Shown: positions 21,177-23,713 of the stretch, in pieces
How the letters are laid out: each line of letters begins with the position of its first letter
How positions within the stretch are numbered: position 1 is the first letter of the stretch
DNA from: Nocardioides sp.
GTDB lineage: Bacteria > Actinomycetota > Actinomycetes > Propionibacteriales > Nocardioidaceae
DNA: 37,297 nucleotides
Direction of reading: 5' to 3'
Assembly: GCA_025966445.1 (NCBI GenBank)
Contig: JAICRP010000003.1
Location: 1 to 37,297, forward strand
Position numbers and translations under genes: made by a program
The notes under the pieces: model-generated
What the model was told of the DNA's origin: nothing
What the model saw: only the letters and a program-made list of their open reading frames with translations
The model's database searches: none

Positions 21177-21259
21177 GGCTGGTCATCGTAGGGAGGGCCC
21201 GTCCCGATCGATCACCCGATTTCATGGCCGCGAGACCACCCGCCCACCAGGATGGGGGC

Positions 21260-22459
21260 ATGCACGAGAAGGAACGGTTCGTCCAACGCGGTGGTGTGTT
21301 CGGCCTCGACGACGTGGTCGGCGACTTCGACGCCTCCGGGGTCGAGGCCGTGCGGGGCATCGCGGACATGATCCGCACCCAGGCCCGCGAGTCGGTGCGG
21401 AGCGCGATGGCGCTGGCGGGCAGCGCGGCGCAGTCGAAGTTCCAGCTGTTCCCCGGCGACTGCGACTTCTTCGAGCGTGTGCACATCCAGGCACCCACCC
21501 GCGAGGACGCCGTCGAGATCCTGGCCGCGACCATGATCGAGTCCGTGGCGCGGACGTTCACCAACCCACACCTGCAGTTCGTCGAGATGAAGCTCGGTCT
21601 GTACCCCGCGGCGTACAGCCGCGAGCAGGAGCCGGTGTCGCAGGGCTCGCCCATCACCTGGGGCCTCGAGGAGATCGACGTACGGGTCGTGCGGGTCGTC
21701 GACGCCACCGGTGAGAGCCACCGGCTGCGGATGCACGAGGTCGCCATGGATCCCGGTTTCGTCAAGCTGGACTGGGTGTTCGCGGACCGTGACCGCGACC
21801 GGGTCGTGCCGGTCTCCAAGGTGATCGACGCGACCTGGGAGGCACCGGACGGGTCGATCGTGGCCCTCGACGGCGTGCTCGACAGCTTCTACCAGGAGGT
21901 CTACCTCGACCCCGAGAGCCAGATCGACGTGCAACGGCTCGTCCAGCACGTCTCGCCGGACGGCCTGGAGAACTACCTCGAGCAGATCGCGGGCGAGATC
22001 GCCCGGTACTCCACGGAGGGACACGAGAACTACGGCAAGGTCGCCAAGCGGCTCTACAACATCACCCGGATCCTGCGGCGCGACGCCGATGCGTCGTACC
22101 TGCGGCAGCTCTTCGACGACCCACCGGCCCGGCTCTACCAGGTCGGCGGAACCATGCACGCGCTCAGCGAAGCCATCCGCGCCGACCGGCTCGACCGCGA
22201 GACGATCGTCGCCCAGCTCGCGGCCCTCGAGGGCACCATCGCCGACTGCTACAGCGGTGAGGACCGCGAGGAGATCCTGGACCTGGTTCGACGGCTGCCC
22301 GAGATGGACGAGGACGAGCTGATCGCCGCGGCCGACCGGATCGCGGTGGCCTCCAACGTCCAGGTGAGCAGCTACTTCCAGCAGAAGATCGCCGAGTCCC
22401 CTGGCCTCACGTCCGTCTACGACCTCATCCTGAAGGAAGCGCCGGGCCACCAGCCGTGA
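21260..22459 (+). CDS. Putative Pol-beta-superfamily nucleotidyltransferase
   Basis: 399 residues from the ATG at 21260, preceded by a purine-rich AGGATGGGGG. I do not recognise a named family, but the catalytic pattern hG[GS]-x(9-13)-D-h-D is visible: LAGS at residues 52-55, 11 residues (AAQSKFQLFPG), then D67-C68-D69 followed by FFERV. A third acid is available as D171 in the beta-strand-like FVKLDWVF. A helical region with ENYGKVAKRLYNITRILRR (about 256-274) resembles the helix that follows the catalytic core in nucleotidyltransferases. Such enzymes transfer NMP to RNA, protein or a small molecule. Its stop overlaps the exonuclease start by 4 bp. It could instead be an inactive homologue or an unrelated fold; the motif match is by eye only. 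Confidence 0.55.
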   Translation: MHEKERFVQRGGVFGLDDVVGDFDASGVEAVRGIADMIRTQARESVRSAMALAGSAAQSKFQLFPGDCDFFERVHIQAPTREDAVEILAATMIESVARTFTNPHLQFVEMKLGLYPAAYSREQEPVSQGSPITWGLEEIDVRVVRVVDATGESHRLRMHEVAMDPGFVKLDWVFADRDRDRVVPVSKVIDATWEAPDGSIVALDGVLDSFYQEVYLDPESQIDVQRLVQHVSPDGLENYLEQIAGEIARYSTEGHENYGKVAKRLYNITRILRRDADASYLRQLFDDPPARLYQVGGTMHALSEAIRADRLDRETIVAQLAALEGTIADCYSGEDREEILDLVRRLPEMDEDELIAAADRIAVASNVQVSSYFQQKIAESPGLTSVYDLILKEAPGHQP

Positions 22460-23118
22460 CCACGACGTCCGAGGACGAGGCCCCCGACGAGCTCGAGACC
22501 CCGCCATCGGTCCGCGCGGACGCCTACATCTCCGCCGACATCGAGGCCGACGGCCCGATCCCGGGGCCGTACTCGATGCTCTCGCTCGGCATGTGCATCG
22601 CCGGGGAGCAGGACGCCTCCGGCACCTTCCGGCCCATCCAGCCGGAGTCGGCTCGCTTCTACCGCGAGCTCAAGCCGATCTCCGACCGCTTCGAGCAGGG
22701 CGCGCTCGACGCGATCGCGGGGAGCGGGATCGACCGCGAGCGACTGAAGACCGAGGGCGCCGACCCCGCGGACGCGATGACCGAGGCCGCCCGCTGGGTG
22801 CTGGACCTGGCCGCCGGCCGGCGGCCGGTCTTCGTCGGCTGGCCCATGGGCTACGACTGGATGTTCCTGACGTGGTACTTCCACTCGTTCTCCGAGATCG
22901 GCTCGCCCTTCTCGTTCGCCTCCGCCCTGGACATGAAGACGATGGTGTACGTCGGCACCCACCGCGTCCTGGACGAGCTCGGCAAGAGGCACCTGCCCGA
23001 CGAGGTGGTCCCCAAGCGACCGCACACGCACCACGCCCTCGACGACGCGATCGAGCAGGCCGAGCTGTTCCAGAACCTGCGTCGCTGGCGGATCCCCGCC
23101 TTCGACGACCTGCCCTGA
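22456..23118 (+). CDS. DEDDh-type 3'-5' exonuclease-like protein
   Basis: 220 residues from the GTG overlapping the upstream stop. RNase H-fold exonuclease motifs: Exo I as ADIEADGP (Asp28, Glu30), Exo II as FVGWPMGYDWMFLTWY (Asp134), and Exo III as THHALDDAIEQAELF (His192, Asp197), i.e. the full DEDDh set. The N-terminal about 20 residues are acidic and disordered. Members of this fold trim 3' ends of DNA or RNA (DnaQ, oligoribonuclease, RNase T). The insertion PIPGPYSMLSLGMCIAGEQ and FASALDMKTMVYV is shared with a group of uncharacterised actinobacterial exonucleases. Tight coupling to the nucleotidyltransferase-like gene suggests opposite actions on the same nucleic-acid end. Confidence 0.75.
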   Translation: MTTTSEDEAPDELETPPSVRADAYISADIEADGPIPGPYSMLSLGMCIAGEQDASGTFRPIQPESARFYRELKPISDRFEQGALDAIAGSGIDRERLKTEGADPADAMTEAARWVLDLAAGRRPVFVGWPMGYDWMFLTWYFHSFSEIGSPFSFASALDMKTMVYVGTHRVLDELGKRHLPDEVVPKRPHTHHALDDAIEQAELFQNLRRWRIPAFDDLP

Positions 23119-23170: not shown

Positions 23171-23713
23171 ATGGGCACTGTTGGTTGGATCATCCTCATC
23201 GTCGTCATCGCCGTGATCGTCATCGGCGTCGCCGTCGCACTCATGGGCAACAAGCGCACCGCTGCCAAGCGTGAGGAGGCCGAGCGCCTGCGCACCGAGG
23301 CCGCCGAGCGCACCGCCAGCGTCGAGGCCTCGCGCCGCGAGGCCGACGAGCAGGCCGCTCGGGCAGAGGTCGCCCGCGCCGAGGCCGCGCGTGCCGAGGA
23401 GGCCGCCCTCCAGGCGAAGCAGGGTGTGCAGGTCGAGGAGGCTCGGGTCGAGGACCAGGTCCGTGCCGCCGACCGGGTCGACCCCGACGTCAACACGCGT
23501 TCGGACGACTACCGACCCGCCGCACCGACGTCGCCGGCCGCGGGGGCCACCACGACCGCGACCGACACCACGCACGACGACGACACGGTCACCGGTGAGA
23601 GCACCACCGTCGACCCCGAGTCGAGCAGGTGGGGCCGCCACACCGACGAGACGGCGACCGTCGACCCTGCGCACGAGCAGGAGACCGCACCGCGCCGCAC
23701 CGACCCGGCCTGA
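23171..23713 (+). CDS. Single-pass membrane protein with coiled coil
   Basis: 180 residues. An N-terminal membrane anchor (VGWIILIVVIAVIVIGVAVALMG, residues 4-26) is followed by a long charged helix rich in Ala, Glu and Arg (residues about 30-100) with repeated AARAEVARAEAARAEEA, then a disordered acidic Thr/Ser/Asp-rich tail. No catalytic domain. Such proteins are common and unassigned in high-GC actinobacteria. GGAG lies 5-8 nt before the ATG. It ends 6 bp before the convergent hutU. Confidence 0.8.
   Translation: MGTVGWIILIVVIAVIVIGVAVALMGNKRTAAKREEAERLRTEAAERTASVEASRREADEQAARAEVARAEAARAEEAALQAKQGVQVEEARVEDQVRAADRVDPDVNTRSDDYRPAAPTSPAAGATTTATDTTHDDDTVTGESTTVDPESSRWGRHTDETATVDPAHEQETAPRRTDPA

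Follow-up and report, generated by a model that had tools for sequence, protein, structure and literature searches.

A Mg662-like nucleotidyltransferase recurrently paired with a Cap18-like DEDDh exonuclease: a candidate module for remodelling nucleic-acid 3′ ends

Do two overlapping genes of a Nocardioides genome, one with the motifs of a nucleotidyltransferase (NTase) and the other with those of a DEDDh exonuclease, encode enzymes that add to and trim the same 3′ ends? This was proposed in a first-pass annotation of the DNA analyzed here (the window; all 37,297 nt of the stretch taken from Nocardioides sp. contig JAICRP010000003.1), and both of its ORFs were recovered with the same coordinates and 4-bp stop/start overlap. 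The called NTase ORF occupies positions 21260-22459 of the forward strand and encodes 399 amino acids; a further in-frame ATG is found at 21224. The exonuclease ORF (22456-23118, forward strand; 220 amino acids) begins with a GTG codon (22456-22458) that overlaps the TGA stop codon of the NTase (22457-22459) to form GTGA at 22456-22459 of that strand. A 4-bp overlap was also observed in N. islandensis (L018; ATGA) and N. agariphilus (L019; GTGA). Since the sequence on either side of the pair could be aligned among the window, L018 and L019, all three hold it at a single inherited site. Among them, pairwise dN/dS was 0.16-0.19 (NTase) and 0.24-0.42 (exonuclease), and both genes are under purifying selection in the Nocardioides copies. 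Scans for promoter and terminator consensus sequences gave no match.

Next to the pair is a gene (23171-23713) whose small product is predicted to be a membrane protein and has a tail rich in Ala and Glu; the gene aligns in L018 and L019. In an empty-site comparison, this gene was found in three of 39 relatives, the window's own genome counted, and no empty site was obtained; in genome G021, the membrane-protein gene alone aligned near the site of the pair. A distant version of the pair was seen in Nocardioides halotolerans (L051), where the NTase is 42% identical over the best segment and the exonuclease lies upstream. Judging from these sequences, the genus holds two very different versions of the pair (L018/L019 versus L051).

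Each element of the Pol-beta-superfamily pattern previously assigned to the NTase was present, namely L52-A-G54-S55, eleven residues and D67-C-D69, D171 in FVKLDWVF, and the K260-VAKRLYNI helix. On the forward strand, LAGS-x11-DCDFFER (residues 51-73; 21410-21478) carries the GS motif and the first two carboxylates, D67 and D69; FVKLDWVF (residues 167-174; 21758-21781) carries the third, D171, which the model places in a strand; and NYGKVAKRLYNITR (residues 257-270; 22028-22069) forms a helix that may contact the triphosphate or nucleic acid. Using patterns from a seven-homolog alignment, 345 stretches were identified in 84,980 species genomes and 281 were confirmed as NTase relatives. The best 80 of these 281 were kept (44 from Chloroflexota, 23 from Actinomycetota, 10 from Cyanobacteriota, two from Helarchaeota and one from Armatimonadota), and all linkage counts refer to those 80 loci, among which L048 duplicates L011, and L018 duplicates L010. 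An alignment of the window NTase with 69 of the kept loci (A3) omitted L021, L025, L046, L050, L053, L057, L060, L066, L081, L085 and L087 as incomplete or near-duplicate, L085 having a stop within its extended frame. In A3, G54, S55, D67 and D69 were each conserved in 70/70 proteins, as were N257, G259, K260, R264, N267 and R270 of the helix, and D171 was conserved in 68/70. Because these residues are invariant or nearly so in 70 proteins, the motif pattern is not attributable to chance, and the conservation of D67, D69 and D171 on which the proposal had been made to depend was borne out.

A GS motif, a DxD and a third carboxylate are the defining motifs of the DNA polymerase beta-like superfamily, and the window NTase, by its sequence, has all three. 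Its core spans approximately residues 22-214 and is followed by a helical C-terminal domain (approximately residues 220-395). No match was found for it in Pfam, NCBIfam or PADLOC at E ≤ 1, and PHROGs returned nothing significant (two rows, E = 0.11 and 0.24). Comparison of window positions 21260-21330 with the first 56 residues of the L029 protein showed that a helical N-terminal part of ~45 residues, present in most other NTase homologs, is absent from the three Nocardioides NTases. Two NTases that adjoin an exonuclease have D171 replaced, by N in L041 (7830-9179, forward strand) and by G in L076 (7839-9161, forward strand), and are possibly inactive or repurposed. In the NTase tree, the branch leading to the window clade was very long, with a warning of joined long branches, and this placement was not used.

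The structure prediction and fold search suggested for the 399-residue protein likewise turned out in favor of an NTase. AlphaFold2 models of the window NTase (mean pLDDT 86.4, pTM 0.84) and of the L029 NTase, which is 38% identical to it (mean pLDDT 86.8, pTM 0.85), shared one outstanding PDB match, Mg662 of Megavirus chilensis, with Foldseek values to 4ams of 5.3e-7 and 8.5e-6, respectively. VIA aligned 301 residues of the window model with Mg662 (Z 20.8, rmsd 3.7) and 303 residues of the L029 model (Z 20.9, rmsd 3.5), and the next unrelated rows were far lower (Z 9.0 and 7.4, respectively). The modeled product of the first gene thus has the NTase core fold, with Mg662 as its best match. PDB titles describe Mg662 as an "ORFan nucleotidyl transferase" (4ams, 4amq and 4xul, the last with GTP). 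The likeness extends over nearly the whole length, including the helical C-terminal domain, although Mg662 is a giant-virus protein and the two share only 10-11% identity. Mg662 chains were listed neither by a sequence search of the PDB with the window NTase nor by a 70-row profile at E ≤ 10, and the kinship is therefore one of fold. The PDB rows that did appear for the NTase, four by sequence (E = 0.008-0.016; centriole proteins and a methyltransferase) and five by profile (E = 0.34-2.1), were taken as chance matches. A search of BFVD returned 15 viral models at E ≤ 0.001, several of them named virophage or giant-virus proteins. Among the uncharacterized viral proteins whose predicted models resemble the window NTase were Zamilon virus V6BPH6 (Foldseek E = 9.6e-14, TM by query 0.65), Pithovirus LCPAC102 A0A481Z405 (E = 1.3e-13, TM 0.56) and mavirus A0A1L4BK94 (E = 2.6e-6, TM 0.44).

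In the product of the second gene, the DEDDh set (D28, E30, D134, H192 and D197) was in place as first described. D28, E30, H192 and D197 were found in all 38 aligned exonucleases, eight of which are not NTase-adjacent, and D134 in 37 of the 38. The protein matched the PADLOC family PDLC00753, "Effector, Exonuclease" (E = 2.2e-40), and PDB entry 7t2s, a 3′-5′ exonuclease (E = 1.8e-27) that we take to be the CBASS Cap18 of Liang et al. (2022). With 7t2s as a sequence relative that has the same catalytic set, the second gene encodes, on sequence grounds, a DEDDh exonuclease of the 7t2s/Cap18 kind with predicted 3′-5′ activity. It differs from 7t2s/Cap18 in lying outside a CBASS operon and in having a partner from another NTase family, and it branches with two unpaired actinobacterial exonucleases, apart from the plasmid/CBASS branch. 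Rv2179c-like exoribonucleases (PF16473) also resemble it (30.9 bits versus a Pfam cut-off of 27), but over residues 105-207 only and far more weakly than PDLC00753. According to a review, Cap18 degrades ssDNA or ssRNA in the 3′-5′ direction and needs no cyclic oligonucleotide (PMC10419184). At E ≤ 1e-8, 95 plasmid records contained relatives of the exonuclease. Five regions bearing such relatives, from plasmids or phages, were examined: L122 is a CBASS operon, L121 lies near an annotated nucleotidyltransferase and an HNH endonuclease, and one is a phage. Members of the family also occur in large phages (six records of 462-735 kb, including Sinorhizobium and Agrobacterium phages), and one phage exonuclease (L124) is placed in the tree close to the paired clade of Cyanobacteriota.

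Rare adjacency of the two genes among homologs would have spoken against the pairing. An exonuclease gene adjoined the NTase in 49 of the 80 loci, none was present in 20 whose flanks measured 1.5 kb or more on each side, and 11 were cut too short to judge; the L046 exonuclease is itself cut by a contig end. Paired loci made up 21/23 of those that could be judged in Actinomycetota, 20/35 in Chloroflexota, 8/9 in Cyanobacteriota, 0/1 in Helarchaeota and 0/1 in Armatimonadota, so that the pair extends far past the actinobacteria named in the first-pass annotation. Relative to the NTase, the exonuclease was upstream on the same strand in 36 pairs, downstream and convergent in eight, downstream on the same strand in three, and upstream and divergent in two. 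All eight convergent pairs were cyanobacterial, and in this orientation the two genes do not form one operon. A 4-bp overlap occurred in 8/36 loci with the exonuclease-NTase order when the chosen start was used (11/36 if any available start codon was allowed), and in 2/3 loci with the NTase-exonuclease order in addition to the window. Among the ORF clusters listed for the 80 loci, those of at least 22 loci were the pair itself or frames overlapping it; the next largest comprised 11 loci at scattered places, and no other broadly recurrent neighbor was found. When the exonuclease was sought with a three-row profile in the 20 genomes without adjacency, it was absent from 18 and located elsewhere in two. 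The exonuclease is thus a frequent but not obligatory partner of the NTase, which, given its occurrence in those 18 genomes, can apparently work alone.

Some NTase loci had neighbors of their own. In three of the four genomes of an actinobacterial family, f36 (L012, L014 and L015), no exonuclease was seen within ~4-9 kb of the NTase, and the fourth (L011) has one; apparent prs and glmU genes, named by sequence inspection, adjoin the NTase of L012 and L015. In six related actinobacteria (L052, L055, L066, L082, L087 and L090), a glutamine amidotransferase-like gene, assigned from a Pfam match for L052, follows the NTase, and its start coincides with the NTase stop codon or is only a few bases away. 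Exonuclease VII subunit genes seem to come after the NTase in four Microbacteriaceae (L037, L054, L059 and L089). The large subunit was found in L037, and the neighbor ORFs gave three large- and four small-subunit matches, the loci being assigned by size and order.

The history of the pair was examined in a tree of 57 exonucleases, in which paired sequences fell in three parts. The Nocardioides clade stood beside L116, which is 51% identical to the window exonuclease, and L117, from two other Actinomycetota; both are unpaired, with no NTase match in their 16- and 15-kb stretches, respectively, or in their genomes. A cyanobacterial clade stood beside a large-phage exonuclease and the unlinked L119, from a Chloroflexota genome that has an NTase elsewhere. 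The third part was a large Chloroflexota/Actinomycetota clade that enclosed three proteobacterial plasmid exonucleases. For groups named after the tree was seen, a single clade of the 49 paired rows (versus the other eight) was rejected (delta lnL 206, AU p = 3e-80), as was a single clade of the 51 rows from NTase-bearing genomes (versus six; delta lnL 106, p = 4.6e-5), which adds L118 and L119, unlinked but with an NTase elsewhere in their genomes (G456 and G465). As the paired exonucleases are not one clade, the pair was probably formed more than once. At some nodes, loss of the partner could take the place of gain, but the differing gene orders favor separate gains.

Co-occurrence was also examined in whole genomes. 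The NTase was present in six of 151 Chloroflexota genomes, one of these rows (G512) covering the C-terminal part only, and a strong exonuclease match (E < 1e-40, leaving out four weaker rows of E = 3e-18 to 4e-11) was present in seven; both occurred in three and were adjacent in two. The exonuclease was therefore found in 3/6 NTase genomes versus 4/145 others (p = 0.001) with the center genome G456 included, and in 2/5 versus 4/145 (p = 0.013) without G456, which had been picked knowing that both genes were present. In 396 Actinomycetota genomes, counting that of the window, there were six strong NTase and four strong exonuclease matches (two NTase rows of E = 0.003 and 0.007 and 11 weaker exonuclease rows being left out), and both occurred in two. 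The association there is thin (2/6 versus 2/390 with the window's own genome; 1/5 versus 2/390, p = 0.04, without it).

In order to see the pair in its setting, we collected 139 ORFs flanking it, up to two on each side, from 36 of the 80 loci; the ORFs were chosen by composition, and L018, L050 and L087 (<4 kb on one side) and ORFs of >1000 amino acids were excluded. The commonest Pfam neighbors, with three or four members each, included exonuclease VII subunits, a transporter component, DnaG, ArgS, ribosomal protein S20, subtilase and glycosyltransferases. A defence island was not indicated, as none of the 65 PADLOC families matched at E ≤ 1e-5, 25 of which were listed, exceeded three of the 139 ORFs in raw counts taken without a random-ORF control. 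Rows in favor of defence were RT_UG29 (3), RTasDnaG-like (3), subtilase (3), MzaA (2; best 4.3e-60), IetS (2) and mad8 (2), together with single rows for mad3, LeoA, LeoBC, GajA, PtuA and capH; the RT_UG29 and RTasDnaG-like rows are probably the three DnaG ORFs. Assignment to CBASS was rejected, since the paired NTase has no PADLOC match as a cyclase at E ≤ 1, and neither a third gene recurring among the 80 loci nor a PADLOC family recurring among the 36 loci, which include L019, was found as an effector. A CCA-adding enzyme or poly(A) polymerase was rejected as well, because the PolyA_pol head domain (PF01743) is absent from the NTase at Pfam E ≤ 1. Of 19 genomes, 18 had a separate PF01743 enzyme and only one, from Helarchaeota, gave no match, which disfavors replacement of the CCA enzyme and implies that the NTase would supply an additional activity. 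A phage origin was also discarded, none of the 50 viral-contig stretches with the NTase pattern being confirmed and no phage record matching; the one plasmid match of the NTase was from Oscillatoria (70 residues, 31%, E = 6e-5).

What, then, might the pair do? We tentatively prefer, at somewhat less than an even chance, a module in which two enzymes remodel the 3′ ends of nucleic acids, most likely RNA, by addition and trimming. The Mg662-like NTase would extend a 3′ end by at least one nucleotide, and the Cap18-like exonuclease would take 3′ nucleotides off the same class of ends; the outcome would be protection, repair or marking of the end, or marking followed by degradation. We infer the action of both enzymes on one substrate, RNA as that substrate, and the order of events. 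A nuclease found recurrently beside a conserved NTase, in several orders and with some overlaps, is best explained by a shared nucleic-acid end. Many untemplated NTases of the Pol-beta-like superfamily act on RNA, and RNA is favored for that reason; DNA may be the substrate of the pair. The add-and-trim proposal is accordingly upheld in both enzyme types and in their linkage, whereas its same-substrate chemistry stays conjectural. The proposal also left out that the exonuclease is kin to a CBASS enzyme and that the NTase has a giant-virus counterpart in fold. For a nucleotide-modified protein, the other target initially suggested, no support was found. Counting against end-editing are the 20 of 69 judgeable loci without an adjacent exonuclease, the two paired NTases that lack D171, the convergent cyanobacterial pairs, and the unpaired state of the archaeal and Armatimonadota NTases that could be judged (two loci). 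The main rival, drawn from the exonuclease's CBASS kinship and in our view unlikely, is a nucleotide-signal module in which the NTase would make a cyclic or linear oligonucleotide like CD-NTases do and the exonuclease would degrade or temper the product or the trigger. In its favor, relatives of the exonuclease adjoin an oligonucleotide cyclase of CBASS in L122 and lie close to genes annotated as a nucleotidyltransferase and an HNH endonuclease in L121, and the fold comparison listed DncV and cGAS at Z 5-6.5, aligned chiefly over the core of the NTase. The NTase's strong whole-length match is nevertheless Mg662, with the CD-NTase rows far below; it matched no PADLOC family at E ≤ 1, and no effector or sensor gene recurs near the pair.

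Ranked next, and likewise unlikely, is an anti-phage or other conflict system that acts on RNA ends, for example in tRNA disabling and repair. The patchy distribution of the NTase (six strong matches in 396 Actinomycetota genomes and six in 151 Chloroflexota genomes, with the window's own genome and G456 included), the two distant versions within Nocardioides, and the exonuclease kin in a CBASS operon and six large-phage records would all suit it; the ordinary character of the commonest neighbors (exonuclease VII, DnaG, ArgS and S20), the low PADLOC counts around the pair, the lack of NTase relatives in phage records or confirmed viral contigs, and the syntenic place of the pair in three Nocardioides genomes would not. 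MenT-type toxins reportedly block RNA 3′ ends, and overlap of the two genes in both orders could recall a toxin-antitoxin-like pair in which the NTase blocks such ends and the exonuclease clears them; we consider this improbable and rejected it as an assignment, since the two do not consistently co-occur, the three-row profile having found no exonuclease in 18 of the 20 genomes whose NTase is unpaired. Least probable of all, and very much so, is that two unrelated housekeeping enzymes stay together only through inherited gene order. Although one arrangement accounts for 36 of the 49 pairs and arrangements cluster on the NTase tree, there are four arrangements, and the paired exonucleases lie in three parts of their tree, where a single clade was rejected.

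The first-pass annotation knew of no bacterial operon of this make-up, and none was found in a search of titles and the opening parts of abstracts of open-access journal papers; Mg662 by name gave no match in the searchable papers. It is possible, though doubtful, that the preferred reading extends to an undescribed RNA 3′-end editing module in which a cellular Mg662-type NTase recruited Cap18-type exonucleases some three times, and in which reversible addition and trimming would serve regulation or repair separately from CCA addition, poly(A) tailing and CBASS. The repeated pairing suggests an unstudied end-editing system in scattered bacteria, and the Mg662-like NTase is also present in Asgard archaea (Helarchaeota), so far without a partner. 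A multi-phylum family unseen by four libraries now has a recognizable predicted catalytic fold and a preferred partner, and its function is directly testable. A protein of giant viruses and virophages that had been deposited as an ORFan gains cellular kin, and exonucleases of the Cap18 kind appear also to partner a different NTase family, whereas the passages available from the literature treat Cap18 with CBASS only. In eukaryotes, a TUTase is paired with SDN1 in tailing and trimming. SDN1 has been described as a DEDDh 3′-5′ exonuclease (PMC6123492). With homology confined to the superfamilies, the chemistry of the bacterial pair would, if the inference holds, be analogous to the tailing and 3′ trimming carried out by eukaryotic TUTases and DEDDh nucleases such as SDN1.
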